DNA from: Stutzerimonas stutzeri
GTDB lineage: Bacteria; Pseudomonadota; Gammaproteobacteria; Pseudomonadales; Pseudomonadaceae
Direction: 5' to 3'
DNA length: 64,000 nucleotides
Assembly (NCBI RefSeq): GCF_000935215.1
Contig: NZ_JXXD01000027.1
Coordinates: 1-64,000 of the forward strand
The first letter of the stretch is position 1; the number at the start of each line of letters is the position of its first letter. The notes beneath the pieces were generated by a model that saw only the letters and a list, made by a program, of their open reading frames with translations, was not told the DNA's origin and did not search any database. Shown in pieces: positions 39,484-56,062 of this stretch. The translations under genes and the position numbers were made by a program.

Positions 39484-40892
39484 CTAGCTTTGCCCCCACT
39501 GCCCGCTGCGGCGCATTGCGCCCCAGTGGTGCTTGCGACGCGAGAACCATTGCCAGAGCCCGCGGCAGCGCCAGACGGTATTCAGCTGGCGGTAGCCGAA
39601 GTTTTCCAGCACGGCCATCAGAAACAGCTGCAGCATGTCGCGCCGACGGCTGTAGACGCGGAACGACATGGTTTCCAGCAGCAGGCCGTTGACCGACAGC
39701 AGGATGCCCATGCCGATCGCCACCAGCAGGAAGGCCGCCAGCGCCGCGTAGGACACCGCGCCGAAGGCGAAGCCGGCGAGCATGAAGCCGTAGCCGACCA
39801 GCTCGATCAGCGGGCCGATCCATTCGAACAGCGCCATGAACGGCCAGGCCAACCAGCCCGGCGTGCCGCCACGCAGGCTGAAGGCCAGCCGCGCATGCCG
39901 GCTCAGGCTTTCGGCCAGGCCGCGTTGCCAGCGGCTGCGCTGGCGGCCCAGGGTGCCGAGGTCTTCCGGGCATTCGGTCCAGCAGATCGGGTCCGGCAGG
40001 TAACGGATGCGGTAGGGGATGCGTTTCTCGCGGTGATAGCGATGCAGCCGCACCACCAGCTCCATGTCCTCGCCGACGGTATCGGTGCGATAGCCGCCGA
40101 CCGCCATCACCCGTTCGCGGTCGAACAGGCCAAAGGCGCCGGAGATGATCAGCACGGCATTGAGCGGCGACCAGCCGAGACGGCCGAAGAGAAACGCACG
40201 CAGGTATTCGACGATCTGGAAGCGCGCCAGCCAGTTGCGTGGCAACCCGGCCTGGATAAGAAAGCCGCCGCGCACCTGCGAGCCGTTGGCGATGCGCACG
40301 GTGCCGCCGGCGGCGATGGTGCGTTCGTCCTCGAGGAAGGGCTGCACCACGCGCAGGAGGCTATCGCGCTGCAGGATCGAGTCGGCGTCGACACCGCAGA
40401 ACAGGCCGTAGCGCGCGGCATTGATACCGGCATTCAACGCATCGGCCTTGCCGCCGTTGGCCTTGTCCACCACCCGCAGATTGGCGTAGCGCCGCGAACG
40501 ATAGATGAGATGGCCTGCACCGGTTGGTGGGCCACGGCCTGGCGCAGCGGCTCGGGGTGCGGCACCAGGTCGAATTCCTCGATCAGCACGGCGAGGGTGT
40601 TGTCCTTCGAACCGTCGTTGATCACCACGATCTCGAACTCGGGATACTGCAGCTGCAGCATCGAGCGCACCGAGGTGCGGATGGTCGCTTCCTCGTTGAA
40701 CGCCGGCATCAGCACCGATACCGGAGGCTCCACACCCAGGTAGGGCGCCAATTCGCCGGTTTCCGCCCGTTGCCGGATGTAGCCCATGAGGCTTGCCATC
40801 GACAGCATGTTGAGCAGCAGGTACATGCCGTTGAGCAGCAGGAAATAGAGGATGAATGCGATCTGCAACCACCACAGCCAGGTATCGGTCAC
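39484..40892 (-). pseudogene. Processive family-2 glycosyltransferase, frameshifted by a 5-bp duplication
   Basis: Together two frames encode one intact-looking membrane glycosyltransferase of the PgaC/BcsA/YaiP type. The first frame (40892 to about 40510) has a TM helix (LQIAFILYFLLLNGMYLLLNML), the GT-A start (PVSVLMPAFNEEATIR) and VVINDGSKDNT. The second frame (about 40505 to 39484) has the DxD region FCGVDADSI, GEDMEL, the processive motif QRSRWQRG and C-terminal TM helices. The break coincides with a perfect tandem AGATG AGATG at 40503-40512; removing one copy restores HQPVQAIYRSRRYANL. The gene ends a ten-gene minus-strand run and its ATG overlaps the HEAT-protein stop. As sequenced, no full-length enzyme can be made. 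Confidence 0.85.
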
Positions 40893-42013
40893 CGGCGCAC
40901 CTCCGCGATGGCGCGGCGCAGGGCGTCCCTGCCGTAACGATCACGAACCTGTTCAAGCATATGCTGCAGCCCCTCCAGCGTTGCGCCCGGCATCGCCGCG
41001 AGGCTGTCGGCCGCCGCCTGGCGCACCCACCAGCTGCTGTCCGATAGCAGCGGCAGGAACAGTTCGCTGTCTTCGCGGCGTGCCTGTTTGTGCAATGCCT
41101 GCAGCGCCGCCAGACGCACGGTGTCCTGTTCATGCTGCAGGGCGCGTAGCAGGCGGTGGCGGTCGCGCGGGTCGCCGAGTTCGCACAGGCAGCGCAGCGC
41201 TACCTGCAGATATTCTGCCGGTGCGCCTTCGTCCAGCCGGGCACGGGCCCAAGGCGCGGCGTGGCGGGGATCGCCCTGCACGAGCAGGGGAACCAGACGC
41301 TCGCGACGCGGATCTTCCGAGGAGGACAGCACGATCAGCAGCGGCGTGGTCACGGCCTGTTCGCCAGCCTGCTGGCAGAGACTGATCAGCCGCGGCAGCG
41401 CCCAGTCGGGGCGATTCACCGCCGCCGGCAGGATCAGCGCCATGGCTTTGCTGGCGTCCATCGCCACCAGGGTCTGGGCGGCGGAGAGGGCGACGATGGA
41501 GTTGCGGCTCAGCAGTAGCGGTTGCACCGCCTGCCAGTGCGCGGGGTCAGCCAGATGCCGCAGGCAGGTCAGGCCGATCAGCTTGCTGCGCACTCTCCCG
41601 CGCAGCAGGATCAAGGCCTGGCGGTCCATGCCCAGAGCGATCAGCGCGCGGTTCATGCGCTCGCGTGCGGCCCCGCGCAACTGTAGCTGGGTGCGGTTCC
41701 ACTGCAGCAGGAACCACAGCTGTCGCCGCCGTGGCAATGGCGCATGGCTGGGCGGGAGTTCGTCGCTCAAGCTGCAGAGGGCGAAGAAGGGCCGCCACTG
41801 TTCGTTGAACTGCTGCCGGCGTACGGTGCGCCGGCGTGATACCTCACCGAGCAGCAGAACCTGCAGCAGCACCAGCACCGTCAGTGCGCCGAGGCCGAAG
41901 GCGCAGTACAGCGCCAGTTGCAGCATGCGGTCTTCCTGCCAGAGCTGCGCCCAGGCGTTCGCCGATGCTTCGCACAGCCAGTGGGGGCAGCGCGCCAGCC
42001 ATTCAGAAAGCAT
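40889..42013 (-). CDS. Membrane-anchored HEAT-repeat protein
   Basis: A 374-residue protein with one membrane helix near the N-terminus (LQLALYCAFGLGALTVLVLLQVLLL, about residues 31-55), then a large alpha-helical solenoid. Repeating pairs of helices of about 30-35 residues can be followed from residue 130 to the end, for example LTCLRHLADPAHWQAVQPLL, IVALSAAQTLVAMD, LQVALRCLCELGDPRDRHRLL and WWVRQAAADSLAAMPGATLE, the form of HEAT or PBS-lyase repeats. It lies between the outer-membrane barrel gene (11-bp overlap) and the glycosyltransferase gene (ATGA overlap). A scaffold role linking synthase and export pore is inferred from context. Confidence 0.8.
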   Translation of the reverse strand: MLSEWLARCPHWLCEASANAWAQLWQEDRMLQLALYCAFGLGALTVLVLLQVLLLGEVSRRRTVRRQQFNEQWRPFFALCSLSDELPPSHAPLPRRRQLWFLLQWNRTQLQLRGAARERMNRALIALGMDRQALILLRGRVRSKLIGLTCLRHLADPAHWQAVQPLLLSRNSIVALSAAQTLVAMDASKAMALILPAAVNRPDWALPRLISLCQQAGEQAVTTPLLIVLSSSEDPRRERLVPLLVQGDPRHAAPWARARLDEGAPAEYLQVALRCLCELGDPRDRHRLLRALQHEQDTVRLAALQALHKQARREDSELFLPLLSDSSWWVRQAAADSLAAMPGATLEGLQHMLEQVRDRYGRDALRRAIAEVRR

Positions 42014-43139
42014 GACGCAGGCCGAGCTGCAGCCATTGCCGGTCGTAGTAGCTGCCCTGCTGGTGATGGCCGATTTCCCAGCTCAGCGCCCAGCGGCTGT
42101 CGAACCAGTGGCGACCTTGCAGGCTGATGGCGCGCACGTCGCTGGTGATCAGCTGCTGTTCCTCCACCGCTTCTTCCTCGCCGACGGTCAGGCGCAGGCC
42201 GGCGTAGCTCAGGCCCTGGTAGTAGTAGTCCAGCGCTAGGTCATGACCGATCGGCGTTCCGGCATTGGCGACATCGGTGACGTTCAGCGTGTAGCCGGCG
42301 CGCCAGGCGTTCCAGTAGCGTTCGGCGCTCAGCGCCAGGCGGTCGACCCGGGTGGTCTCGTACTCGGTGCGGCGGACACTGACGGCGCCGAGGTAACCGT
42401 CCGGTAGCCGCCGCTGCAGGCGCAGATCGGCATGCCACTCGGGAAGGAAATAGGGCGACGGCTGGTAGCCGACCTCCGGTTGCAGGGTCCAGTTCTCGTC
42501 CAGCGCAATGACGGCGCCGGCTTCGACGCCTTCGTCCCACTCGCCGAAGCGTTGCTCGCGTGTCAGCGCGCCATACCAGCCGAGACTCTCCGGTTTCGTC
42601 GAGGCGTAGTCCAGGCGCTGGCTGCGCCAGTTGTCAAAGCCGCTGTCGAGCCAGTCCTGGCGAGCGGAGATTTCCAGTTCGTGGCGTCGCCTGGTCGCGG
42701 CGTCGACCACCGGCACGGGCGCCGCTGCGGTGCTGGGCACGGTCAGCGCAGCACGGGCCTGCTGGATCACCTGCTGCACCTCGGCATAGTCCGGGGCGAG
42801 CTGGGCGGCGCGCTCGAGCGATTCCAGCGCCCGTTGCGGATGACCGGCCCAGAGTAGCGCCTGGCCCTCGCCGAGCAGATAGTCGGCGTTGTCCGGCTGT
42901 TGCTGCAGCAGGCGGCGATAGATCGGCAGCGCCTGTTCAGGGCGGCCTTGCCAGCTCAATACGCGGGCGAGCAGGAACTGCGCCGCGGTGTCGTCCGGCT
43001 GCCCGGCCAGATGCGCCTGCAGCGTGGCCTCGGCCGCGTCCAGTTGTTGCGCCTGGACCTGCCGCTCGGCGGTAGCGACGTCCGCCAGCGCCGCACTGCA
43101 TGGCAGCGCCAGGGCAATCAGCATGGCCGCTCGCTTCAT
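42003..43139 (-). CDS. YaiO-family outer-membrane barrel with N-terminal TPR region
   Basis: A 378-residue exported protein. The signal peptide (RAAMLIALALPCSAALA) is followed by tetratricopeptide-like repeats (LDAAEATLQAHLAGQPDDTAAQFLLARVLSWQGR..., about residues 30-140) and then a C-terminal part with alternating, aromatic-ended beta strands (YaiO domain, about residues 155-378) that ends LGLRHAF, with the terminal Phe expected of outer-membrane barrels. In E. coli, yaiO neighbours the glycosyltransferase gene yaiP. Here it sits two genes upstream of the broken glycosyltransferase, so it is the likely export pore or periplasmic chaperone of that polysaccharide system. Confidence 0.8.
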   Translation of the reverse strand: MKRAAMLIALALPCSAALADVATAERQVQAQQLDAAEATLQAHLAGQPDDTAAQFLLARVLSWQGRPEQALPIYRRLLQQQPDNADYLLGEGQALLWAGHPQRALESLERAAQLAPDYAEVQQVIQQARAALTVPSTAAAPVPVVDAATRRRHELEISARQDWLDSGFDNWRSQRLDYASTKPESLGWYGALTREQRFGEWDEGVEAGAVIALDENWTLQPEVGYQPSPYFLPEWHADLRLQRRLPDGYLGAVSVRRTEYETTRVDRLALSAERYWNAWRAGYTLNVTDVANAGTPIGHDLALDYYYQGLSYAGLRLTVGEEEAVEEQQLITSDVRAISLQGRHWFDSRWALSWEIGHHQQGSYYDRQWLQLGLRHAF

Positions 43140-43525
43140 CGGCGGCCCCTCAGCAGTCGGCGGATGCGCGCCAGCAGTTCCTCCGGCTGGAAGGGCTTGG
43201 TCACGTAGTCGTCGGCGCCGAGTTCCAGTGCTCGGACGATGTCCACTTCACGGGCCTTGGCCGTCAGCATCAGCACCGGCACGCTGTCCCAGCCGGGCTG
43301 CGCCCGCAGCCGTTCGATGAGTTCCAGGCCGTCATGGTAGGGCAGCATGATGTCCATCAGCGTCAGGTCCGGCGGCTCGCCCTGAGCGAAGTACTCCAGT
43401 GCCTGCCGCCCATCGGCGGCGTGGTCGACCACGAAGCCGTGACGTTCGAGCATGTAGCGGATGAGAAAGGCGATGTCTTCTTCGTCTTCCACCATGAGAA
43501 TGCGTTTGCTGGCGGATTCGCTCAT
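43136..43525 (-). CDS. Stand-alone receiver (REC) protein, downstream of hybrid kinase
   Basis: A 129-residue single-domain response regulator with all key residues: acidic pair in MVEDEED, phospho-acceptor Asp in LTLMDIMLP (about residue 57), Thr in VLMLTAKA and Lys in YVTKPFQ. It has no output domain, so it must act by phosphotransfer or protein contact. Its stop overlaps the barrel gene start and its start overlaps the hybrid-kinase stop (four bases each). It is one of three lone REC proteins in the operon. Confidence 0.92.
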   Translation of the reverse strand: MSESASKRILMVEDEEDIAFLIRYMLERHGFVVDHAADGRQALEYFAQGEPPDLTLMDIMLPYHDGLELIERLRAQPGWDSVPVLMLTAKAREVDIVRALELGADDYVTKPFQPEELLARIRRLLRGRR

Positions 43526-46393
43526 GGGTGAGCCTCGTCGGTTTCGTGTGTGTGCCCCGGCGGCCAGTGTTGCAGCAGGTGCTGGATCAGCCTGGCCAGC
43601 TCATCGCCGTCGTGACGGGATTTCACCAGTTGGCGCAGCGCCAGGCGGTCGTCCTGAATCGGGGTGTCGAGCGCGGAAAAGATGATCACCGGCGGCGGTG
43701 GGACGCTCTGCGCGAGCTGGTCGAACAGCTCGGTACCCTGACCGTCCGGCAGCATCAGGTCGATGATGGCCAGGTCGAACGTCTGTGCCGCGATCAGCTC
43801 GCGCGCTTCGTGCAGCGTCGCGGCGCCGGAAAGGTCGACGTCGAGCACGGCAATCTGCCTGGCCAGCAGCACCCGCAGGTCGTCATCGTCCTCGACGTGC
43901 AGGATGCGCGGCCGGTGTCCACCCAGCTGCAGACAAGCGCGGATGACGTCCATCACCCGCGAGGGGTCGATCGGTTTGTGCAGCCAGTCGATCACGCCCA
44001 CCGCGCCGCCGCGCAGCGTGCCGTCGTCGTCATCGCGGCGCTGCGGCTGCAGGCTGACGATCAGCACCGGCAGGTTGCGGTAGTTGTGCTGGCTGCGCAG
44101 GCTCTGCAGGAAGGCCGCGCTGTTTTCGTCATCCAGCGCCGGGCTGAGGGTCAGTGCCTCGATGTCGAACTGCTGCAACAGCCGGCGTGCCTCGGCTGCG
44201 GTGCCGCTGATCAAGGTCGCGTAGCCATGCTGCTGCAGCGCCGCGGCCAGCTGCTCGGCCGCATGGGTGTCCGGCTCGAGGATGAGGATCAACGCAGCAT
44301 TGTCAGGCTGGGTTGCTCTGGCTGGCGGCGTAGTGGGGCGCTGCAGCGGCGCCGCGGATCGCACCTCCAGCGGCAGCTGCAGCCAGAAGCGCGAGCCGTG
44401 ACCTTCCTGGGAGTCGAAACCGATCTGTCCGTGCATCTGCTGCACCAGCGAGCGGGTGATCGCCAGTCCCAGCCCGGTGCCGCCGCGCTGGCGGGCGTCG
44501 GAGGAATCGGCCTGGGCGAAGCGCTCGAAGATGCGCCCACGGAAAGCCTCCGGAATCCCCGGCCCCTGATCCTGTACGCCGAGTTCCAGCACGTTGTCAT
44601 GGTGACGTAGATCGACCGTCACGCTGCCGCCGGCGGGGGAATGCTTGATCGCGTTGGACAGCAGGTTGGCCATCACCTGGGCGAAGCGGTCGGGGTCGAC
44701 CATGGCTTCGCTCGACAGCGACTCATCGGCGCCCACCAGCGTGAGATTGACGTCGTAGTCGCGGGCGTACGGCTGGATATCCGACAGCGCCTGCTGCACC
44801 AGCGCGCGCACGTCATGGTGGCCGAAGTTGAAGGCCAGGCGTCCGGCTTCGAGTTTTTCGATGTCGAGGATGTCGTTGATCAGGCGCACCAGGCGTTCGC
44901 TGTTCTTGTGAGCGATATCCAGCAGCGGGCGGGCGTCGTCGCCGATATGTCCGGCAATGCCTCCGATCAGCATACCGAGGGCGCCGCGGATGGCGGTCAG
45001 CGGCGTGCGCAGTTCGTGGCTGACCGTCGAGATGAATTCCGTTTTCATCCATGCGTCGGCGCAGGGAGATGTCCACCGCCACCGTGACCACATGACAGGT
45101 ACGTGTCGAGATCCGCAGCGGGCGCTTGACCACCTGGAACCAGTGCTCCGCGCCATGGGCATCGGTCAGCGCGACCTCGGTGCTGCGCAGATCGCCGCTG
45201 CCTCCCGCCAGTTCGGCCAGCTCTTCGTCACCCAGCAGCAGCGGTTGCAGCCGCACGGCAGACGGCACCTCGTCGGGGCGGCGCTGCTCGATGTCCTGCG
45301 GGCGCACGTCCAGCAGGGCCGCGAGCGCCGAATTGCAGAGCAGGAAACGACCCTGGGCGTCGCGAACGAAGATCAGGTTCTCGTCGGTGTCGACCACGCG
45401 GCGGAGAAAGACCTGCTGGTCATGCAGGCTGTCGCGGTTGCGCTGCAGTTCGCTGACGTCGCGCGCGATGGCCAGATGATCGCCCAGCCCGGTGGGCGTC
45501 AGACGAACCTCGAAGGTGCGCTGGGTCTGCAGCTCGCACCAGGTCTTCTGGCGCAGTGCGCCCTCGTCGGTCTGATTGAGCAGCTCGATGAGCAAGGGTT
45601 CGATCGCTTCCGGCGGCGGTGCGCGGCGCGGGGTGCCTCGCGAAATGCTCGACACCTGCTGCCGCTCATCGACCGCGTAGAGGTGGTCCGGGATGGCCTG
45701 CAGCAGCGCCCCGAGGCGTGCCTCGCCGGCCTGGGCGCTGCGGGCGAGCTGCTGGCGAATCTGCAGATTCCGCTGCAAGGCCCAGAAGGCCGCCAGAAAC
45801 AGCCCGATCACCACCAGCGTGCCGATCAGTGCCAGTTGCTGCGCGCGCTCGGTGGTGCGTGCCACGGCTGCGCTGGCGGCGGCCAGGTGGCTGCGCTCGT
45901 GCTGCTCGACGGCGTTGAGCAGTGCGCGCAGGCGGTCCATCAGCAGGTGCCCGCCGGCCTCGCGCAGACGCTCCACGGCAGCCTGCAGCCCGGCCTCGCG
46001 GCGGGTTTGCATGTTGCCGGCGGCAACTTCGAGGCGGTCGGCGATGGTCGCATCGAGGGTCCGGAACCAGCGTCGGTCGGGATAATCACGTCCTTCGACC
46101 TGGCGCTGCAGGCTGCGTCGGTTGCCTTCCAGTTGTCTGAGGCCACGTTCGTAGGGTTCGAGATAGGTGGGGTCGCCGGTGAGGATGAAACCGCGCGAAC
46201 CGGTTTCGATGTCCTGTAACGAAGAAAAGATCGCCTGGACCGAGGTGATGATTTCCAGGCTGTGGCTGACCGAGCGATTGGTCTGCAACAGCGCTTCCTG
46301 CGTGCGCTTGCCTTGCCAGCCAAGCGCGACGAGCAACAGAAACGCAGCGAGAAAGGCGATTGAATGCCAACCGATCGCGAGTCTTGCGGGCAA
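43522..46393 (-). pseudogene. Hybrid sensor histidine kinase (CHASE3-PAS-PAS-HisKA-HATPase-REC-REC), frameshifted
   Basis: Two frames together encode a kinase of about 950 residues. The first, from TTG 46393 with AAGGAG upstream, carries a TM helix, a CHASE3 periplasmic domain (QDIETGSRGFILTGDPTYLE), a second TM (LALIGTLVVIGLFLAAFWAL) and two PAS domains, and runs in frame to about 45050. The second frame holds the HisKA phospho-His (TEFISTVSHELRTP), the HATPase (NAIKHSP, GTGLGL) and two C-terminal REC domains. The switch occurs in ATGGATGAAAACGG (45041-45053): a +4 near-duplication (ATGG/ATGA) or one extra base. Removing it gives RRMKTEF or RRMDKTEF. As sequenced the sensor half and catalytic half are separate. 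An ATG at the junction could start the catalytic half alone, but no ribosome site precedes it. Confidence 0.8.
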
Positions 46394-46525
46394 ATCGGAC
46401 TCCTTCCGCCGGGGATGACTGCACAGAATCCCCAGTTGCCTCGCTACCGCGTGGTCACCGGGATGAACTCAGTGTAGTCAGACCTGCACGAACCACAGCG
46501 GTTCGCCGCCGAAAGGGCCGGGCGC

Positions 46526-48163
46526 TCAGCGCTGGGCGATTTGCACCTGGTTGCGGCCGTTGTGCTTGGCCACGTACAGCGCCTGGTCGGCATGCTCGAG
46601 CAGCAGGCCGGAGGCGCTCTGGCCGTCGGTCTCGCAGATGCCGGCACTGAAGGTCACGCGGAACTCCTGGTCGCCGGCATTGAAGCTCAGCGCAGCGAAG
46701 CGCACGCGGATTTCGTCGAAAATGCGTCGGGCCTGCAGGGCCGAGCATTCGGGCAACACGGCGACGAACTCCTCGCCACCGTAGCGGCCGAGGCTGTCGA
46801 TACGCCGCAAGCGCTGGCGCAGCAGGTTGGCCAGGGCGCGGATCACATTGTCGCCGGCGGCGTGCCCGTAGGTGTCGTTGATCTGCTTGAAATGATCGAG
46901 GTCGAGCATCACCACGCTGGCGGGTTTGCCGGTGCGGGTGGTGCGCTGCACTTCCAACGCCAGCTGTTCCTTGATATCAGCGTGCTTGAGCAGGCCGGTC
47001 AGGCTGTCGCGGGCCAGCGCCGTACTCAGCGAGCGCGCACGCTGTGCGTGGGAATACACCGCGGCCACCAGCGCGGTATCGCTGATCGGTTTGGTGATGA
47101 AATCGTCGCCGGCCTTGAGCAGTGCGGCCATCTGCCGGTGGGTATCGGTCTCGGCGGAAAGGTAGATGATCGTCACCCGCAGCCATTCGTCATGCAGGCG
47201 GATCATCTGCGCCAGCTCTGGCCCCGAGCAGTCCGGCATGTTGACGTCCAGCAGCAGCACCTCGGGGTTGAAGCTGCGCATGGTTTCCAGCACGCGGGTC
47301 GGCTCGGTGAGTATCTGCACCTGCATCTGTGCGTTGCGCAGCACCAGGCTGTAGCGTGCCGCCAGCTCCGCATCGTCATCGACGATCAGCACACGGAAGG
47401 GTTCGCCCTGCTGTCGATCGAGGCAGCGCTCCAGGCTGTTCTCCAGCTGGGTGATATCCAGCGGGCGGACGAAGAAGCCCTGCGCACCGGCGCGCACCGC
47501 AGCCAGCTGGCTGGCGAAATCGGCCCGGTCGTGGATGAGCAGCAGCGGCAGTGGCTGCTCGAGGCCTTGCTGCAGAGCGGCGAGCGCCTCGAAATCGCTG
47601 TCCTGCTGCACGCTGACGATCAGTGCGTCGGGCAGCTCATCGGCTACGGCCTGTTGCAGTGCGGCGAAATTGGGCCACTGGCTGACCAGATAGCCGAAGT
47701 TGCGCAGGGTCACCGCCATGCTGGCGCCCGCGACCGGATCGGCCTTCATCAGGTAGATGCGACAGCCGGGTGCCGGCTCTTCGTGATGCTCCGGCAGTTC
47801 CGCCGCGCCGTGGCGTTCCTGGCCGGGGGTTTCACTGGCCAAGTGCAGCACCGCGCGGGCGAAGGCCTCGGCGGCGCGGCTGCCCGGCTTGGCCGAATCA
47901 AGCCAGCGATCAGCCCGCTGCTCCAGCTGCCTGGCGCGCTCCCCGAGCTTGGCGAAGCCGAAGGTGCCGGCGGCGCCGGCCAGCCGATGCAGGCGCTCGC
48001 GGATGCTCAGCATCACTAGCCGGCGGCTGGCGGTGGCACGGGTCTGCTGCAGATCCTGGGCGAGCGTGGCGAGGTCGGTCAGGTCGGCCTGCAGGCGCTC
48101 GCCGAACTGCTGTTCCAGCTGCGCCAGTTGCGCCTGCAGCGCCAGGCGGGTGCGATCATCCAT
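46526..48163 (-). CDS. Hpt-REC-REC-GGDEF response regulator (diguanylate cyclase)
   Basis: A 545-residue protein that should make cyclic di-GMP in response to phosphorelay input. The N-terminal Hpt domain (phospho-His candidate in RLHRLAGAAGTFG, about residue 60) is followed by a first REC that looks degenerate (IYLMKADPV, no phospho-Asp at IVSVQQD) and a second, intact REC (LIVDDDAE, VLLLDVNMPD, IIYLSAETD, FITKPI). The GGDEF domain has an intact active site GGEEF at 462-466 and an inhibitory site RRID at 453-456 in the standard five-residue spacing. ATG 48163 with GGAGG is chosen; it overlaps the upstream REC gene by eight bases. It is the only domain in the operon with a known output activity. 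Confidence 0.92.
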   Translation of the reverse strand: MDDRTRLALQAQLAQLEQQFGERLQADLTDLATLAQDLQQTRATASRRLVMLSIRERLHRLAGAAGTFGFAKLGERARQLEQRADRWLDSAKPGSRAAEAFARAVLHLASETPGQERHGAAELPEHHEEPAPGCRIYLMKADPVAGASMAVTLRNFGYLVSQWPNFAALQQAVADELPDALIVSVQQDSDFEALAALQQGLEQPLPLLLIHDRADFASQLAAVRAGAQGFFVRPLDITQLENSLERCLDRQQGEPFRVLIVDDDAELAARYSLVLRNAQMQVQILTEPTRVLETMRSFNPEVLLLDVNMPDCSGPELAQMIRLHDEWLRVTIIYLSAETDTHRQMAALLKAGDDFITKPISDTALVAAVYSHAQRARSLSTALARDSLTGLLKHADIKEQLALEVQRTTRTGKPASVVMLDLDHFKQINDTYGHAAGDNVIRALANLLRQRLRRIDSLGRYGGEEFVAVLPECSALQARRIFDEIRVRFAALSFNAGDQEFRVTFSAGICETDGQSASGLLLEHADQALYVAKHNGRNQVQIAQR

Positions 48164-48545
48164 GCTCGGCCTCCCAGATCTGCCGCAACTGGTTGGCAAG
48201 TTGCAGCGGATCGAACGGCTTGCCCAACACCTGACGTACGCCGAGCTGGCGCAGCTCCTGCAGCCGTTCGGGCTGCAGGTGGCCGGTGAGAAACACCACG
48301 GGCGTCTGCTGCAGGTCGACCAGATCGGCCAGTTGGCGAACCAGCTCGATGCCGTCCATCTGCGGCAGCATCACATCGAGCAGGATCAGGTCGGGGGCGA
48401 AGGCCTGTACCTGGTCGAGCGCGGCCTGGCCGGACTGACAGCTGAGCACTTCGAAGCCGCCGAGCTTTTCCAGCGCGATACGCGTCACCACTTGGATGGA
48501 CGGTACGTCTTCGACGTGCAGGATGCGCTTGAGCTGTTTCATCAC
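48156..48545 (-). CDS. Stand-alone receiver (REC) protein paired with kinase 2
   Basis: A 129-residue receiver with acidic pair (HVEDVPS), phospho-Asp in LILLDVMLPQMDG (about residue 55), Thr in VVFLTGH and Lys in VLGKPFDPLQL. It closely resembles the REC at 51035 (shared ILHVED, EVLSC, GQAALDQVQAFAPD-type and KPFDP stretches), so the two probably arose by duplication together with their kinases. Its start overlaps the kinase stop by four bases, and its stop overlaps the Hpt-GGDEF start. Confidence 0.92.
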   Translation of the reverse strand: MMKQLKRILHVEDVPSIQVVTRIALEKLGGFEVLSCQSGQAALDQVQAFAPDLILLDVMLPQMDGIELVRQLADLVDLQQTPVVFLTGHLQPERLQELRQLGVRQVLGKPFDPLQLANQLRQIWEAEHG

Positions 48546-50953
48546 GGGCTCTCCTTGGCCTGGCCTTGTATGGGTAGTTCGAACCAGAAGCAGGCGCCCT
48601 GGCCGGGCTCGGATTCGAAGCCGATCTGCCCGCCCATGTGCTCGATCAGCTCCTTGCTGATCGCCAGGCCCAGTCCGGTTCCGCCTTGCTGGCGGCTGTC
48701 GGACGAGTCGGCCTGGGCGAACTTCTGGAATACCCGCGCACGAAATTCGTCGGAAATGCCCGGGCCCTGGTCTCGGACGCTGACCCGTACCCGGTCGTCA
48801 CTGACCTGCGCCGACAGCTCGACCCGTTCACCGGCCGGGGAAAACTTCGCCGCGTTGGACAGCAGGTTGCTCAGCACCTGCTGTAGGCGCATGGCATCGA
48901 CCGTCACGCTCACTGCCGGGCAGGCGCCGAGGTGCAGCTGCACGCCATGCCGTTCGGCATAGCTGCCGTTGCTGCGCAGGGCCAGCTCCAGCTGGGGTTG
49001 CAGCGGTTGTTCGAGCATGTCGAAGCGCATCTTGCCGGCGTGCAGCTTGTCCATGTCCAGCAGGTCGTCGATCAGCGCGCTCAGGCGCTGGCTGTTCTGC
49101 TGGGCGATCTCCAGCAGTTCGTGCATCGACTCGGGCACTTCGCCCATGACGTTCGAGCAGATCAACGCCAGCGCGCCGGTGATGGACGTCAGCGGCGTGC
49201 GCAGCTCATGGCTGACGGTGGAGATGAACTCGCGCTGCAGGCGTTCGATGCGCTTGCGTTCGGTGATGTCGTGCAGCACGACGACCGCGCCCATGCGCTG
49301 GCCATCGGAGGTGTACAGCGGGTCGGCGTTGGACAGTACGTGCCGCGGTGCGCCATTGCTCAGCAGCACCATCTCGTGGTCGATGACGTGCTCGCCATTG
49401 AGGGCGCGGCGCAGGGGAATCTCTTCGGGTTTCAGCGGGGTGACGCCATCGGCGCGGTACAGCCGGTAATGGCGGGCCCATTCGCTCGGCGATAACGGGG
49501 CGACATCGGCGCCATGCCACTGCTTGGCCTTCTCGTTGAACAGGGTCAGATTGCCTTCGGCATCGCAGGCGATCACCGCTTCACTCAGCGCCTCGAGCAG
49601 GCGCCGGTTCATCTCCTGCTGTTTGTCCAGCTCCAGCTGCTCGGCCTTGCGCGCGGTGATATCGGTAACGAAGCCGTGCCAGAGCACCGAGCCGTCGACC
49701 TGCTGCAGCGGGGTTGCCCGCGCCTCGACCCAGATCAGCCCCTTGTGCGGGTGCTCGACACGGTGCTCGCTGTGCCAGGGCGTGAGTTCACGAGCCGCCT
49801 GGCGGATGCTGAGCAACAGGGCGCTGCGGTCGGGGCCGTGGACCCGGCCGACGATCGGCGCAAAGCTGCTGGCCAGCTGCGCCGGGCTGAGCCCGTAGAT
49901 CTGCTCGACCCCTTCACTGACATAGGGAAAGCACGCCGGTCCATCGGCGCGCCAATGGAACTGGAAGAGCATGCCCGGGACCTGCGCGGCGATCTGCTGC
50001 AGGCGCAGTTGCAACTGCTCCTGATAGGCCAGGTCGTAGGCGTTGACCAGGTAGCCGCGCAGGTGCTCCTGCTCGTCATGGATCGCGGTCACGCCCAGCA
50101 GCACCGGCACCTCGTTGCCGTTCTGGTGGCGCAGGCGCCATTCGGACATGTCGCGCCGCCCGCGGTGAAGCGGCGCGGTCAGCACCGAGAAATCGGCCTC
50201 GAGCGGTATCTGCAACTCGCTGGAGAGCAGCAGCGCCCGGCGCTGCAGTGCCTCCGGGCAGAACAGCGCAGCGGTCAGTGGATGGCCGACCAGCGCCTGT
50301 TCGCTGTAGCCGAGCAGGCGCTCGGCGGTCGGGTTGACGCTGGTGACGACGCCGTCAGGTCGGGTCACCAGTACCGCGCTGGAGGCACTGTCGAGGATCG
50401 CCTGTTGCAGTGCCGCCTGCTCGGCGTGACGGTGCGCCAGCAGATGCTGCTCGAACAGGCGGATCACCTGGCGTCCGAGGCGCTCCAGGGTCTCGCGCTG
50501 TTGAGCGCTGAGCCGCCGCGGCTGGCGGTCGATCACGCACAGGGTGCCGAGGTTGTAGCCATCCGGCGAGGTCAGCGGCGTGCCGGCATAGAAGCGGATA
50601 TGCGGATCGCCGAGCACCAGCGGGTTGTTGCAAAAACGCGGGTCCTGCAGCGTATCCGGTACCTCGAAGATCTCGTCGCCGGCGATGGTGTAGGTGCAGA
50701 AGGAGATCTCCCGCGAGGTCTCGCTGACGTCGAGGCCGACCCGGCTCTTGAACCACTGACGGCGGTCGTCGACCAGCGAGATCAGCGCGATGGGCGTGTC
50801 GCACATCTGCGCGGCAAGCGCGGTGAAGTCATCGAAGGCGCTGTCCTCGGGGGTGTCGAGGATTTCGTAGCGCAGCAACGCTGCCAGGCGTGACAGCTCG
50901 CGCGGCTGGACGGTGGATGGCATCGGCGTCGTGCTGTGTTGCGGTGACTCCAT
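48542..50953 (-). CDS. Cytoplasmic sensor histidine kinase (GAF-PAS-PAS-PAS-HisKA-HATPase), kinase 2
   Basis: An 803-residue soluble kinase without TM helices. It opens with a GAF domain of the type found in bacterial phytochrome-like/HK families (RYEILDTPEDSAFDDFTALAAQMC, IALISLVDDRRQWFKSRVGL, about residues 25-165). Three PAS domains follow (about 180-560), then HisKA with phospho-His near residue 582 (FISTVSHELRTPLTS) and a HATPase with NLLSNAAKFSP, DQGPGI and GTGLGLAISKELIEHM. The third-PAS-to-C-terminus portion is strikingly similar to kinase 1 at 51468. It is followed directly by its own lone REC gene. Confidence 0.93.
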   Translation of the reverse strand: MESPQHSTTPMPSTVQPRELSRLAALLRYEILDTPEDSAFDDFTALAAQMCDTPIALISLVDDRRQWFKSRVGLDVSETSREISFCTYTIAGDEIFEVPDTLQDPRFCNNPLVLGDPHIRFYAGTPLTSPDGYNLGTLCVIDRQPRRLSAQQRETLERLGRQVIRLFEQHLLAHRHAEQAALQQAILDSASSAVLVTRPDGVVTSVNPTAERLLGYSEQALVGHPLTAALFCPEALQRRALLLSSELQIPLEADFSVLTAPLHRGRRDMSEWRLRHQNGNEVPVLLGVTAIHDEQEHLRGYLVNAYDLAYQEQLQLRLQQIAAQVPGMLFQFHWRADGPACFPYVSEGVEQIYGLSPAQLASSFAPIVGRVHGPDRSALLLSIRQAARELTPWHSEHRVEHPHKGLIWVEARATPLQQVDGSVLWHGFVTDITARKAEQLELDKQQEMNRRLLEALSEAVIACDAEGNLTLFNEKAKQWHGADVAPLSPSEWARHYRLYRADGVTPLKPEEIPLRRALNGEHVIDHEMVLLSNGAPRHVLSNADPLYTSDGQRMGAVVVLHDITERKRIERLQREFISTVSHELRTPLTSITGALALICSNVMGEVPESMHELLEIAQQNSQRLSALIDDLLDMDKLHAGKMRFDMLEQPLQPQLELALRSNGSYAERHGVQLHLGACPAVSVTVDAMRLQQVLSNLLSNAAKFSPAGERVELSAQVSDDRVRVSVRDQGPGISDEFRARVFQKFAQADSSDSRQQGGTGLGLAISKELIEHMGGQIGFESEPGQGACFWFELPIQGQAKESP

Positions 50954-51034
50954 CGTCGGCGCCTTGCTGGTTCGGTGAAGGGCGTCCGGGTCGGGTCGGG
51001 TAGCGTGGCACGACCGGGGCTTAAGCAGTTCTGC

Positions 51035-51421
51035 CTAGTATCGGCCACTCAGCCAGATGCTGCGAATCTGCTCGGCCAGCTGCATCGGGTCGAACGGCTT
51101 GACGATCACGTCGCGCGCGCCCAGCTTGCGCAGGTGCTCGATCTCGCTCGGCTGCACCTTGGCGGTCATGAATGTTACCGGAATCCGTTCCAGGTCGATG
51201 CGCTCGCGCAGCCTGAGCAGCGTCTGCGGGCCGTCCATGCCCGGCATCATCACGTCCAGCAGGATGAAGTCGGGGGCGAAGGCTTCGACTTCCTCCAACG
51301 CCTGTGCACCAGAGGAGCAGGACAGCACCTCGTATCCGCCAACGGCCTCCAGGGCCAGTTTGGTCACCGCCTGAATCGACGGATCGTCTTCAACGTGCAG
51401 GATGCGCCTTAGCTCGGCCAT
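51035..51421 (-). CDS. Stand-alone receiver (REC) protein paired with kinase 1
   Basis: A 128-residue receiver with HVEDDPS (acidic pair), LLDVMMPGMDG (phospho-Asp about residue 54), VTFMTAK and VIVKPFDPMQLAEQIRSIW. No output domain. It lies 46 bases downstream of kinase 1 and 81 bases upstream of kinase 2 on the same strand. It is the sister of the REC at 48156. Confidence 0.92.
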   Translation of the reverse strand: MAELRRILHVEDDPSIQAVTKLALEAVGGYEVLSCSSGAQALEEVEAFAPDFILLDVMMPGMDGPQTLLRLRERIDLERIPVTFMTAKVQPSEIEHLRKLGARDVIVKPFDPMQLAEQIRSIWLSGRY

Positions 51422-51467
51422 TGTGCCTCCGGGGGTCGTTTGCGTGCGCGTCCGCTTAACGGAAGCA

Positions 51468-54431
51468 TCAGGATCGATCTTGCGCCAGCGGCGCGACTGG
51501 CAGTTCGCACCAGAAACAGGCGCCTTCGCCAGGCTCGGAATCGAAACCGATCCGGCCGTGCATGTGTTCGATCAGTTCCTTGCTGATGGCCAGGCCCAGG
51601 CCGGTGCCTTCCTTCTGGCGGCTGTCGGAGGAATCGGCCTGGGAGAATTTCTGGAATATCCGTGTGTGGAATTCAGGGGCAATGCCCGATCCCTGATCGC
51701 GTACCGAGATTCGCACCCAGTCATTGCGTCGCTCGCTGCCGAGCGTAACGGTGCCACCCTGCGGCGAGAATTTGACCGCATTGGAGATGAGATTGGCCAG
51801 TACCTGCTGCAACCGGTCGTCGTCTGCCATCAGCTGCACGTCCGGCGCTGGCAGCAGCTCCAGCGTGACGCCATGCTTGCTGGCGTAGCCCTGATTGGCG
51901 GCAATTGCCTGTTGCAGTTGCGCCGGCAGCGCATGCGCGCGCAGGTCGAGGGTCATCTTGCCGGCGACCAGCTTGTCCATGTCCAGCAGGTCGTCCACCA
52001 GGCGCCCCAGGCGCAGGCTGTTCTGGTGGGCGATGCTGATCATCTGGCGCATGTTTGGCGAGGGTTCGCCCAGGGCACCGCCGACGATCAGGCCGAGGGC
52101 GCCGGAGATCGATGTCAGTGGCGTACGCAGCTCGTGGCTGACGATGGACACCAGCTCACTCTTCATCCGCTCGATGCGCTTGCGTTCGGTGATGTCGCGC
52201 ACCAGGCCGATGAATCGGCGCTCGCCGTGGTGGTTGATCTGCGACACGCGCAACTCGATGGTGAAGGTTTCGCCGGTACGCCGCAGGGCGGTGAGTTCGC
52301 GGTTTTGTTCCAGCGCGCGAGGTATGCCGCGTCTTTCGTAGGTCTCCAGATAGCCGTCGTGGGCGGAGCGGTCCGGTTCGGGCATGAGCATCGACAGGTT
52401 GCGGCCGATGACCTCCGCGGCGCTGTAGCCGAAGATATGTTCGGCGGCATGGTTGAAGGTTTCGATGATGCCTCGGGCGTCGATGATGATGATGGCGTCG
52501 ATCACGTTGTCGATCAGCATGCTCAGGTAGCGCTCGCGCTCCTGCATCTCTTCCTTGGCCAGCGCCTGGTCGGTGACATCCCAGATGAAGCCGTCGCACC
52601 AGCCCACCGGGTCGTCGCGCTCGTGCAGTACGCGGGCTTTTTCGCGCACGTAGACGGTGCGGCCTTCGGCATTGATGAGGCGGTAGACGCCCTCGAAGGT
52701 GTCCTGCTCGGCGTGTTGCCGGGCCAGCTCGAGGTCGTCTGGGTGGATCAGGCTGGCGTAGCTGCGCACGCGGTCGCCGACGAAATCGCCGGCCGGGTAG
52801 CCGGTCAGGCGTTCGATGCCGTCGCTCAGGTAACTCATGCGCCGGCGGCCGTCGTTGCGGCAGCGGTAGACCACGCCCGGCAGGTTGCTGACCATGGCGC
52901 GGAAGCGGCTCTCGCTCTTCTGCAGCGCGCGGGTGGCTTCCATCAGTTCGGTGATCTCAGTCACGAAGCCGTGCCAGAGCACGGTGCCGTCAGGACGTCG
53001 CTCGGCGGTGGCACGTCCCTCGGCCCAGAGCAAACCGCGTTGCGGATGCTGGATGCGGAACTCCACCGAGCCGGTTGTCGACCCAGCAGCCACACGCAGC
53101 AGTGCGGCTTTCAGTCGTGGCAGATCCTGCGGGTGAACGTGCACCAGGGCCTGGGAAGCATCTTCCAGTAGCCGCTGCGGGTCGATGCCGTACAGGTCAC
53201 GTGCGCCCTCGCTGGCATAGAGGAAGGCATAACGGCCGTTGGCGAAGCGCTTGAGCTGAAACACCACGCCGGGCAACAGGCTGGCGATCTTCTGTGCGCG
53301 GTCGAGCAGGCGCTGGCGGCGTCGGCCCTGCTGTTGCTGGCTGAACTGATGCTGCAGCTGCGCGCCGATGCGCCGTTGCAGCAGTACCGCCAGGGTCAGC
53401 AGCAGCGCCTCGGCGATCAGCCAGGCCAGACTCCATTTGATCAGCAGCCGGCGCTCGGCCTGTTGGTGCTCCTGCTGCATCGCGGTGATGTCGCGCCAGA
53501 CCAGCGCCGCTGCCAGCAGCGGCGCCGATGGCTGGGCCCGACGGTCGCTGTGCAGGGGAATCTGATTGAGCATATAGGTGCGGCCGTCGGCACTCAGCAG
53601 GCGCAAGGCCAGGCCGCTCTCCGGCTCGGGCAACATGCCTTGCTGCGCCCAGTGCAGTATCTGCGTCGCCGAATGCTCGATCAGCAGCCAGTCGCCGTCG
53701 CTGCGCAGTTGCACGCCACTGGGGGATTCCACGTCCGCCGCCTGCAGTGCCTGACGCTTGACCACCAGCGCCAGCCCGGCAGCCAGCTGATCGCCCAGCT
53801 CGGGCAATTCCGGCAGCACGTTGTAGCCGACTTCCAGGGCGCCGATGATCTCGCCGGACTCGCTGTCGGTGGCACGCAAAGGAACGATGGCGCGACTGCT
53901 GGCGCCGAGCGCATTGACCTCCATGCCGTACTGCATGCTGCCTTCGCTCATCGCGCGGCGCAGCATCGGGCGCTGCGCCGCCATTGCGTCACCGAAGCGC
54001 TCCGGTTGCTGCATGCGCAGCAGGGCGACCCCAGCGTCGCTCCAGAAGATCTGCAACTGCAACGCGCCGTGGCGTTGCATGGCGCTCCAGGCCGGGCTCA
54101 ACGCGGCGCGCAGACGCTGGCGTGCCAGCTCGATACGTGCATCGCCCATGGCCCGGCCATCACGTAGCGCCGTATCGATCTGGCGTACCTGGCGCAGCAC
54201 TTCGGCATTGCCGGCCAGCGCCGTGGCGACCATGTCGGCCTGCCGTCGCTGATTGAGCTGCGCGCTCTGCAGCGCCAGGCTCTGCAGTTCGCCGTGGGTG
54301 TCGATTTCCAGGTGCCAGGCGGCATCGCGCGCGCGGTAGTCATTGAATGCCAGGCTACCGAACAGCAGCACGAGCAGCAGGCTGCCGAGCGTGAAGATCC
54401 AGTGGGGTGTGGTGATGCCGGCGTTCGTCAT
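51468..54431 (-). CDS. Membrane sensor histidine kinase (CACHE-PAS-PAS-PAS-HisKA-HATPase), kinase 1
   Basis: A 987-residue kinase. TM1 (WIFTLGSLLLVLLFGSLAF, about residues 10-28) and TM2 (WSLAWLIAEALLLTLAVLL, about 330-350) bracket a periplasmic dCACHE-like sensor (RMQQPERFGD, GMEVNALGASSRAIVPLR, IIGALEVGYNVLPEL). Three PAS domains follow, with phospho-His near residue 766 (LVSIVSHELRTPLTS) and a HATPase carrying NLISNAVKFSP, DQGSGI and GTGLGLAISKELIEHM. The start is uncertain: ATG 54431 sits just before TM1, and an in-frame ATG at 54563 would add 44 residues. It is first in the operon, so its promoter should lie in 54432-54747. Confidence 0.9.
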   Translation of the reverse strand: MTNAGITTPHWIFTLGSLLLVLLFGSLAFNDYRARDAAWHLEIDTHGELQSLALQSAQLNQRRQADMVATALAGNAEVLRQVRQIDTALRDGRAMGDARIELARQRLRAALSPAWSAMQRHGALQLQIFWSDAGVALLRMQQPERFGDAMAAQRPMLRRAMSEGSMQYGMEVNALGASSRAIVPLRATDSESGEIIGALEVGYNVLPELPELGDQLAAGLALVVKRQALQAADVESPSGVQLRSDGDWLLIEHSATQILHWAQQGMLPEPESGLALRLLSADGRTYMLNQIPLHSDRRAQPSAPLLAAALVWRDITAMQQEHQQAERRLLIKWSLAWLIAEALLLTLAVLLQRRIGAQLQHQFSQQQQGRRRQRLLDRAQKIASLLPGVVFQLKRFANGRYAFLYASEGARDLYGIDPQRLLEDASQALVHVHPQDLPRLKAALLRVAAGSTTGSVEFRIQHPQRGLLWAEGRATAERRPDGTVLWHGFVTEITELMEATRALQKSESRFRAMVSNLPGVVYRCRNDGRRRMSYLSDGIERLTGYPAGDFVGDRVRSYASLIHPDDLELARQHAEQDTFEGVYRLINAEGRTVYVREKARVLHERDDPVGWCDGFIWDVTDQALAKEEMQERERYLSMLIDNVIDAIIIIDARGIIETFNHAAEHIFGYSAAEVIGRNLSMLMPEPDRSAHDGYLETYERRGIPRALEQNRELTALRRTGETFTIELRVSQINHHGERRFIGLVRDITERKRIERMKSELVSIVSHELRTPLTSISGALGLIVGGALGEPSPNMRQMISIAHQNSLRLGRLVDDLLDMDKLVAGKMTLDLRAHALPAQLQQAIAANQGYASKHGVTLELLPAPDVQLMADDDRLQQVLANLISNAVKFSPQGGTVTLGSERRNDWVRISVRDQGSGIAPEFHTRIFQKFSQADSSDSRQKEGTGLGLAISKELIEHMHGRIGFDSEPGEGACFWCELPVAPLAQDRS

Positions 54432-54747: not shown

Positions 54748-55938
54748 ATGTGGCACACCGGTTTACTCGACCTGTCGGTCTGGCAACTCATCGCGACCAC
54801 GCTGCTGCTGACTCACGTCACCATCGTCAGCGTAACGGTCTACCTGCACCGTTACTCGGCGCACCGCTCGCTGGAGCTGAATCCGGCGCTCAAGCATTTC
54901 TTCCGCTTCTGGCTGTGGCTGACCACGGCGATGAACACCCGCGAGTGGACTGCCATCCATCGCAAGCACCACGCCAAATGCGAGACCCCCGACGACCCGC
55001 ACAGCCCGGCGCACAAGGGTCTGAGCACGGTGCTGCGCAAGGGCGCCGAGCTGTACATGGAAGAGGGGAAGAACGAGGAAACCCTGCGCATCTACGGCAA
55101 GAACTGCCCGGACGACTGGATCGAGCGCAACCTCTATTCGCGCTTTCCCAATACCGGCATCGTGCTGATGCTGCTGATCGACCTGGCGCTGTTCGGCGCG
55201 CTCGGCCTCACCGTGTGGGCCGTGCAGATGATCTGGATTCCGTTCTGGGCCGCCGGCGTGGTCAACGGTCTCGGTCACGCGGTCGGCTATCGCAACTTCG
55301 AATGCCGTGATGCGGCGACCAACCTCCTGCCGTGGGGCATCCTCATCGGCGGCGAGGAGCTGCACAACAACCACCACACCTATCCGAACTCGGCCAAGCT
55401 GTCGGTGCGCAAATGGGAGTTCGACATGGGCTGGGCCTGGATTCGCCTGTTCAGCCTGCTGCGGCTGGCCAAGGTCAACCGTACCGCGCCGATCGCCCAC
55501 CGCATCGAGGGCAAGCAGCAGCTGGACATGGACAGCGCCATGGCGATCCTCAACAACCGTTTCCAGATCATGGCGCAGTATCGAAAGCTGGTCATCGTGC
55601 CGCTGGTGCGCCAGGAACTGGGCCGCGCCGACGCCACGCTGCGTCATCAACTGCGCCGGGCCAAGCGTCTGCTGGCGCGGGAGCCGAGTCTGCTGCAGCA
55701 GGAGCAGCAGGCGCACATCGACGACATGCTGGCGCAGAGCCAGTCGCTCAAGGTGATCTACGAGAAGCGTCTGGCGCTGCAGCAGATCTGGACGCGAACC
55801 AGCTCGAACGGCCACGAAATGCTGGCGGCGATCAAGCAGTGGGTGCACGAAGCGGAGGCCAGCGGCATCCAGTCGCTGCGCGAATTCGCCGAGCATCTGC
55901 GCACCTATTCACTGCGCCCGTCGGTCGCCATCGCCTGA
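54748..55938 (+). CDS. DesA-like fatty acyl desaturase (membrane di-iron)
   Basis: A 396-residue membrane desaturase that should introduce a Delta-9 double bond into acyl chains, most like the phospholipid desaturase PA0286. The three histidine boxes are present: HRYSAH at 34-39, HRKHH at 71-75 and HNNHH at 206-210, with two hydrophobic hairpins (about 10-35 and 135-175). The C-terminal 130 residues form a long charged helix region not needed for catalysis in shorter relatives. It is followed by a PAS-GGDEF gene, as PA0286 is followed by a c-di-GMP gene in P. aeruginosa, so the linkage is conserved. Confidence 0.9.
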   Translation: MWHTGLLDLSVWQLIATTLLLTHVTIVSVTVYLHRYSAHRSLELNPALKHFFRFWLWLTTAMNTREWTAIHRKHHAKCETPDDPHSPAHKGLSTVLRKGAELYMEEGKNEETLRIYGKNCPDDWIERNLYSRFPNTGIVLMLLIDLALFGALGLTVWAVQMIWIPFWAAGVVNGLGHAVGYRNFECRDAATNLLPWGILIGGEELHNNHHTYPNSAKLSVRKWEFDMGWAWIRLFSLLRLAKVNRTAPIAHRIEGKQQLDMDSAMAILNNRFQIMAQYRKLVIVPLVRQELGRADATLRHQLRRAKRLLAREPSLLQQEQQAHIDDMLAQSQSLKVIYEKRLALQQIWTRTSSNGHEMLAAIKQWVHEAEASGIQSLREFAEHLRTYSLRPSVAIA

Positions 55939-56062
55939 CCTTCCATCGGCTCAAGCACAAGGTCTGCAGCCGGCCGGAACTTTGCCTCTGGCCGGCTCTC
56001 TGAACAGCATTCTCAACATGCAGTACCGTCGCAATCGCGACGGTCGTTTCAGGAAGAAGGCT

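Follow-up and report, generated by a model that had tools for sequence, protein, structure and literature searches.

Results

Ten coding units in two modules

The window analysed here is a stretch of 64,000 nucleotides from Stutzerimonas stutzeri (contig NZ_JXXD01000027.1 of assembly GCF_000935215.1, positions 1 to 64,000; the host assembly has 397 contigs and 4.88 Mb). Ten coding units on its minus strand, running from 54431 to 39484, encode histidine kinases (HK), response regulator receivers (REC), a diguanylate cyclase (DGC) and a polysaccharide synthase with its presumed exporter. A first-pass annotation had described them as one operon of ten genes with cyclic di-GMP (c-di-GMP) as its only visible output. 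The list of open reading frames (ORFs) and the Pfam searches bore out the gene order, the strand and most of the domains that it named. The comparison with relatives given below shows that the locus is two neighbouring modules, A, a c-di-GMP relay, and B, a synthase with its own receiver.

Module A starts with HK1 (51468-54431), a membrane sensor with PAS, HisKA and HATPase domains and without a receiver of its own. It is followed by the lone receiver RECa (51035-51421), which is conserved in the genus, by HK2 (48542-50953), a GAF-PAS-HisKA-HATPase kinase also lacking a receiver, and by a second lone receiver, RECb (48156-48545). The last gene is DGC (46526-48163), with the start at 48163 (an 8-base overlap with RECb) preferred over 48199. 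Its product carries an Hpt domain (24.8 bits, cut-off 24.6), a receiver without the phospho-acceptor Asp, a complete second receiver and a GGDEF domain with a GGEEF motif and an RxxD I-site. The Hpt His, the Asp of the second receiver, GGEEF and RxxD were invariant in all 32 copies examined, the window included, and Hpt domains occur at only five places in the 4.88 Mb genome. To judge from the domains, kinase, receiver, Hpt with its His and terminal receiver with its Asp, all the parts of a multi-step phosphorelay are present, and their chemistry fits a relay from HK1 and HK2 through RECa and RECb to the Hpt and on to a receiver. A DGC paralogue was also located near kinase and receiver domains (G000:C73:29303-30880, 39% identity over 530 residues), and paralogues of this type recur in most genus genomes checked.

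Module B lies beyond a gap of 132 bases (46394-46525), the boundary being placed here from the coordinates and from genus loci that have no YaiO-HEAT-glycosyltransferase genes after DGC. It opens with HK3 (43522-46393), a hybrid kinase of the form CHASE3-PAS-HisKA-HATPase-REC-REC whose first receiver has no Asp. In the genus, this position was Ser in all 24 copies examined, while the kinase His and the Asp of the second receiver were kept in 24 of 24. Next comes RECc (43136-43525), a lone PhoB-type receiver without a DNA-binding domain, with its phospho-acceptor Asp in all 22 genus copies examined. The remaining genes encode a tetratricopeptide repeat (TPR) protein with a YaiO outer-membrane barrel (42003-43139), the presumed exporter; a putative HEAT adaptor (40889-42013); and a family-2 processive-type glycosyltransferase (GT, 39484-40892).

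Most junctions had been said to overlap by 4-11 bases. This held for six of the nine (4, 8, 4, 4, 11 and 4 bases), and the other three are gaps of 46 (HK1-RECa), 81 (RECa-HK2) and 132 bases (DGC-HK3). As all four junctions within module B overlap and the largest gap divides DGC from HK3, the junctions agree with a split into two modules. Of the three sensory inputs proposed earlier, the GAF/PAS and CHASE3 domains were found by Pfam, but HK1 gave a weak CACHE match below the cut-off (dCache_3, 23.4 bits; cut-off 25.7). The reported lack of DNA-binding domains was upheld among the Pfam matches of the ten genes. Pfam found no PilZ or MshEN domain in them either, so the c-di-GMP step that had been assumed is without a visible receptor.

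Rfam and tRNA scans gave no matches, a scan for sigma-70 promoters and terminators gave counts not above those of shuffled sequence, and a plasmid tblastn search with DGC as query gave no match at ≥60% identity. Beside the locus, on the opposite strand, lie a fatty-acid desaturase ORF (54748-55938) and a second diguanylate cyclase gene (PAS-GGDEF, 55982-57061), and a GGDEF match stands at about the same place in many genus loci. The C-terminal part of the desaturase ORF matches the ISL3 transposase family in Pfam. Since the ORF is conserved at about full length in most genus loci, this points to a constant C-terminal domain or a dubious ISL3 match rather than a fresh insertion.

Frame breaks in HK3 and the glycosyltransferase

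The locus had been presented as ten whole genes, and this was rejected, because HK3 and GT are each split into two ORFs by a frame break. The ORFs of HK3 (46393-44813 and 45162-43522) overlap in different frames, the shift lying just before HisKA. Those of GT (40892-40434 and 41133-39484) reflect a shift inside the catalytic domain. The HK3 break is a 5-base deletion of bases present in all 13 relatives compared, and the GT break is a 5-base tandem duplication absent from all 11 relatives compared.

Two further assemblies of the species bear on the breaks. One (G069, locus L090) matches the window exactly across the HK3 break and carries GT in frame; in the other (G068, locus L091), both genes are intact. 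The identity in L090 led us to reject sequencing error as the probable origin of the HK3 break, while the GT break, seen in one assembly, may be a sequencing error or a recent mutation. Module B is probably inactive in the window strain. Within the genus, GT is intact in 36 of 37 copies of module B and frame-broken only in the window. Stutzerimonas kunmingensis DSM 25974 (L130) is an example of an environmental strain whose locus is unbroken. HK3 was called frame-broken in four of the 40 genus loci where it was found, the window included; one of the four (L097) is frameshifted in several genes, perhaps through poor assembly. L106 retains only a remnant of HK3, and L049 has an early 1-base insertion in HK3 though it was scored intact in the genus table.

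Distribution of the modules in the genus

Module A was scored by DGC (≥60% identity) and module B by HEAT (≥63%) in 56 genus genomes, and synteny was followed in 51 fetched genus loci plus the window. A DGC relative was found in 51 genomes and a HEAT relative in 37. All 37 HEAT-bearing genomes have DGC, 14 have DGC without HEAT, none has HEAT without DGC, and five have neither. In 36 of the 37, module B directly follows DGC (in G068, the contig stops within DGC). The exception is G023, where HK3-RECc-YaiO-HEAT-GT form a five-gene block on a different contig (L092) from that of module A (L053).

DGC is present without YaiO-HEAT-GT after it in 15 genus loci, and 13 of these have nearby the aldehyde dehydrogenase gene that borders the complete locus. 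Two of the 15 keep part of module B beside module A, HK3 alone in G024 (L065) and HK3 with RECc in G066 (L107). Of the 49 genus loci having RECa, 8 gave no HK1 match above the threshold applied.

The clustering exceeds chance, since genomes across the genus preserve these blocks. The neighbourhood that had been described, of a multi-kinase phosphorelay including an Hpt-cyclase and a polysaccharide synthase with its exporter, occurs in 36 of the 37 genomes having the synthase unit, so that relay, cyclase and synthase are truly linked at the level of genomic association. The expected synteny of the GGDEF, HEAT, YaiO and GT genes held to the extent that B follows A in these genomes, but the 14 genomes with A and without B, together with the separate module B of G023, speak against a single system.

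The synthase, the HEAT protein and the exporter

GT motifs D-x-D, GED and QRSRW were present in all 23 genus copies examined; another motif, DGSKD, has a single substitution in one of them. Across 11 of 11 diverse copies, the processive family-2 motifs D-x-D, (T/G)ED and Q(Q/R)xRW are kept. Among the E. coli proteins compared, the nearest to GT is PgaC (28.5% over 284 amino acids, E 1e-32), followed by YaiP (5e-8). Kinship with NfrB was rejected, its best E value of 0.14 not being significant. The YaiO barrel scored 93.6 bits with PF19413 (cut-off 23.9) and 144.7 with TIGR04390 (cut-off 32), and blastp of the window YaiO-family protein against E. coli YaiO listed no hit.

For HEAT, hydropathy of a close relative's copy predicts one transmembrane helix (residues 37-55), and the structural model has a long N-terminal helix followed by a solenoid (predicted local distance difference test, pLDDT, 95.0; predicted template modelling score, pTM, 0.85). 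The best matches in a fold search were designed alphaRep proteins, armadillo-type solenoids and importins, which are generic only, and searches of solved structures likewise returned generic HEAT, armadillo and designed repeats for HEAT and distant glycosyltransferases for GT. With this topology, HEAT could bridge a receiver in the cytosol and a synthase in the membrane.

A receiver-HEAT-glycosyltransferase cassette in other phyla

Among 369 genomes of the class (the window's own included), HEAT relatives with 21-32% identity were found in ten other genomes, and a lone receiver precedes HEAT or YaiO-HEAT in eight of these ten loci. For a wider scan, the GT alignment was compared with named genomes, loci were picked by GT alone and the best 80 by GT similarity were retained. 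This set includes eight Stutzerimonas-like loci, two near-duplicates of one Solirubrobacter locus and many metagenome-assembled genomes (MAGs). Its labels cover Pseudomonadota, Nitrospira, Acidobacteria, Neomarinimicrobiota, Gemmatimonadota, Balneolaceae, lineages of Actinomycetota, Bacillota, Myxococcota and others. Domains were called with profiles built from the window and its relatives, with a Pfam check on 39 proteins.

HEAT adjoins GT in 70 of the 80 loci, and 65 of these 70 had enough upstream sequence to assess. A receiver protein lies within 2.6 kb upstream of HEAT on the same strand in 54 of the 65 (41 lone receivers and 13 longer receiver proteins), or in 45 of 56 once the Stutzerimonas-like loci and one duplicate are excluded. 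These receivers have the phospho-acceptor Asp in 50 of 54 cases (Glu in four) and the Lys in 53. Receiver density in the 71 non-genus loci was highest close to GT: the last 2.5 kb before the gene had 0.339 receivers per kb, the adjoining upstream bin 0.110, and bins still farther away 0.030-0.050. A GGDEF gene, by comparison, is found within 5 kb of GT in just 10 of the 80 loci, with a weak or partial match in four (L177, L178, L180, L197); the Stutzerimonas DGC itself is just beyond that distance. The upstream receiver, not a cyclase, is thus the regulator most regularly found with the synthase, and the claim that c-di-GMP is the only visible output is not supported.

Defined as a receiver upstream of (YaiO-)HEAT-GT on one strand, the cassette includes RECc-YaiO-HEAT-GT of the window. 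By gene order and domains, this core of module B is a cross-phylum cassette, and in bacteria with two membranes YaiO would join it as the exporter. If YaiO exports across the outer membrane, Gram-positives should lack it, and in four Bacillota loci (L185, L187, L191 and L193) receiver-HEAT-GT indeed came without a YaiO match to our profiles. In Nitrospira (L144:1550-3939), a REC-Hpt-REC-HEAT row stays together with GT about 6 kb away. Luteimonas deserti (L135) and Vreelandella (L136-L137) have CHASE3 kinase-REC-YaiO-HEAT-GT, with a GT 77-80% identical to that of Stutzerimonas. No module A was found in the fetched stretches of these three loci, which suggests transfer of module B between families.

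Hpt domains, some of them joined to GGDEF domains, also occur at distant cassettes. With an Hpt profile of our own, applied to the 71 non-genus loci, Hpt domains with their His were found at 15, giving 19 domains on the GT strand and none on the opposite strand. Pfam also finds Hpt in 14 of the 15, all of those scanned, and L181 is below its cut-off; in L180 and L186 the Hpt-like segments lack the His. Upstream of the cassette, an Hpt-REC-GGDEF-REC protein followed by a lone receiver is encoded in L174, L175, L178 and L192, Hpt-REC with a partial GGDEF and a REC in L197, Hpt-REC in L152, and Hpt-REC-REC in L202 and, with the below-cut-off Hpt, in L181. Hpt-REC-GGDEF proteins stand beside the same synthase in MAGs of Neomarinimicrobiota and FCB. 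A Burkholderiales MAG (L140) has, downstream, an Hpt-REC-REC-GGDEF protein with the architecture seen in the window, together with two kinases and a lone receiver. Lone Hpt proteins are present in L144, L146, L195, L175 and L177, and an Hpt ends a hybrid kinase in L151. As Hpt domains are fused to receivers at non-genus cassettes, some with GGDEF in between, the link between Hpt or cyclase and the synthase recurs in distant phyla.

A tree of 47 cassette receivers together with 62 more receivers from these loci, built from few columns and with unsettled bootstraps, required 15 changes of the cassette label against a shuffled mean of 35.5, and none of 500 shuffles was as low. One 54-row group (support 88/96) holds 40 of the 47 cassette receivers. 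It also contains the C-terminal receivers of the Hpt-REC-GGDEF-REC proteins of L174, L175, L178 and L192, beside Gemmatimonadota cassette receivers (97/89 branch). Distances were correlated between receiver and HEAT (r 0.64), receiver and GT (r 0.67) and HEAT and GT (r 0.92; n 47, 0 of 2000 permutations).

Discussion

A phosphorelay that may switch a polysaccharide synthase

The reading that we favour, and that we hold to be an even call, is that the locus joins two modules in a phosphorelay which ends on RECc and switches the synthase through HEAT, with the Hpt-cyclase as branch point and c-di-GMP as an additional output. Module A would be a split His-Asp-His-Asp relay formed by HK1 and HK2, the two lone receivers and the Hpt-REC-REC-GGDEF protein. 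Its Hpt could pass phosphate either to the receiver on the same protein, giving more c-di-GMP, or to RECc, giving the synthase switch. Phosphorylated RECc would bind the cytosolic solenoid of the membrane adaptor HEAT and turn the synthase on or off, so that c-di-GMP would be a second, optional output and not the sole one. Each phosphotransfer step, the binding of the receiver to HEAT and the control of the synthase by HEAT are steps that we infer from the arrangement of genes and domains. HK3, a hybrid, has no Hpt, and as DGC carries the sole Hpt of the locus, HK3 would have to go through it to reach RECc. In other phyla, an Hpt is fused or adjacent to the receiver next to HEAT, and the Stutzerimonas Hpt may by this analogy serve both RECc and its own receiver. 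The presence of the module A Hpt protein in all 37 HEAT-bearing genus genomes, including G023 where module B is elsewhere, agrees with this. Also in favour of the reading are the frequent receivers upstream of HEAT and their grouping on the tree, the correlated distances, the Bacillota cassettes in which YaiO was not detected and the Hpt domains at distant cassettes.

Several observations weigh against this reading. A PgaCD-like c-di-GMP site in the synthase is possible. The pattern in which B implies A (37/0/14/5) is not phylogenetically independent, and the correlated distances could be explained by shared descent alone. Our Hpt profile was built partly from proteins that it later found, the fetched stretches of 56 of the 71 non-genus loci have no Hpt, and L135 (Luteimonas) and L134 have the hybrid type of HK3 with no Hpt nearby. 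Ten of the 80 loci have no HEAT gene near GT, and 11 of the 65 assessable loci have no receiver at the upstream place. Six of these 11 have the order HEAT-GT-YaiO (four Stenotrophomonas or Thermomonas, two other proteobacterial), so the receiver is not always needed there. The main tree group leaves out seven of the 47 cassette receivers: the lone receivers of L174, L175, L178 and L192, which are loci of the Neomarinimicrobiota type, and those of L161, L188 and L191 (Desulfosporosinus). With the fused C-terminal receivers inside the group and the lone ones outside it, the cassette-type receiver of Neomarinimicrobiota seems to be the one fused to the Hpt-cyclase.

Other explanations of the same locus must be set beside it. 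The model of the first-pass annotation, in which the inputs merge through the Hpt on the diguanylate cyclase and c-di-GMP directly activates the synthase, as in PgaCD, BcsA and NfrB, could account for the invariant GGEEF, I-site, Hpt His and receiver Asp, for the adjacency of B to A in 36 of 37 genomes, for the Hpt-GGDEF proteins beside the same synthase in other phyla and for PgaC, part of a c-di-GMP-activated complex, being the nearest E. coli protein compared. We consider it rather doubtful, given the lack of PilZ and MshEN in the ten genes, the scarcity of GGDEF genes near GT and the fact that module B brings HK3 and RECc with it and not DGC (L092 in G023; L134-L137). It is also conceivable that the modules are independent neighbours left by one ancestral insertion, HK3 driving RECc and the synthase while module A feeds a general c-di-GMP pool. 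The 14 of 51 genomes with A and without B, the separate block in G023 and the Vreelandella arrangement, near which no Hpt was found, speak for this. It is made unlikely by the fact that none of the 37 HEAT-bearing genomes has B without A, by the need of a hybrid HK3 for an Hpt under phosphorelay logic and by the recurrence of Hpt proteins at cassettes in several phyla.

The locus of this strain could, finally, be decaying or under reversible on/off mutation, in which case no function need be sought here. Two separate 5-base indels, the identity of the HK3 one in one of two conspecific assemblies, and the disappearance of module B from other species, complete or in part as with the remnants in G024 and G066, are in line with such a process. 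We regard it as highly improbable, as no longer repeat tract was found at either break site in the sequence stretches compared, and as the intact GT in 36 of 37 genus copies and its conserved catalytic residues indicate that the system appears to be kept by selection in the genus.

Returning to the relay that ends on RECc, a wider proposal can be made, tentatively and with somewhat less than even confidence. Receiver-HEAT-GT2 could be a cross-phylum class of synthase in which a phosphorylated receiver acts as an allosteric switch through a membrane HEAT adaptor, replacing c-di-GMP or working beside it, and the Hpt-(REC)-(GGDEF)-REC fusions would show how the phospho-switch and the c-di-GMP output are wired to one relay. 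Secreted polysaccharide synthases are often thought of as gated by c-di-GMP. If the proposal is correct, the conserved receiver and HEAT adaptor that accompany a PgaC-related synthase from Stutzerimonas to Clostridium would mean that a synthase can be under the direct, post-translational control of a two-component phosphorelay, with no DNA binding involved. The lone receivers of these clusters, and the Hpt-diguanylate cyclases beside some of them, would then be simply explained.

Comparison with known systems

A description of the receiver-HEAT-GT cassette was not found in the open-access PubMed Central literature for the wording searched; the parts seen of PMC12419801 and PMC3826837 do not describe it, and none was found in those of PMC3633832 and PMC10333796.

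With PgaABCD, the locus shares a family-2 synthase related to PgaC and a TPR outer-membrane exporter. It differs in that Pfam found no PgaB- or PgaD-like gene among the ten, with the HEAT adaptor and lone receiver here instead, and the two GT pieces score 54.7 and 88.8 bits with the PgaC_IcaA equivalog TIGR03937 against a cut-off of 422.3. The PgaCD complex is activated by c-di-GMP, which it binds without a PilZ domain.

In E. coli, according to the portion of PMC8669469 seen, the synthase NfrB of NfrBA-YbcH is under local c-di-GMP control by DgcJ, and the likeness lies in a local diguanylate cyclase that serves a family-2 synthase with a TPR outer-membrane partner (PMC8669469). The window locus differs in lacking MshEN, and there is no HEAT or receiver gene among the annotated nfrB-nfrA-ybcH.

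The Stenotrophomonas and Thermomonas loci L156, L164, L165 and L169, with the order HEAT-GT-YaiO, resemble XagABCD of Xanthomonas. Pfam shows a sulfatase-like gene after YaiO in both loci scanned (L156 and L164), and the resulting four-gene order fits xagABCD, in which xagB is the glycosyltransferase (PMC3609779, seen in part), an equivalence suggested by gene order. The same partial source gives xagABCD as a biofilm operon whose expression is raised in an rpfG mutant (PMC3609779), and the portion seen of PMC3826837 reports an xagA pseudogene in one strain. Unlike the window cassette, these four loci have no receiver found upstream.

DGC itself can be compared with PleD, with which it shares the REC-REC-GGDEF order, the GGEEF motif and RxxD. 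With the PleD equivalog model it scores 190.8, the cut-off being 474. In PleD the first receiver is the one used, whereas in DGC it is the second receiver that has the Asp, and an Hpt domain has been added at the N-terminus.

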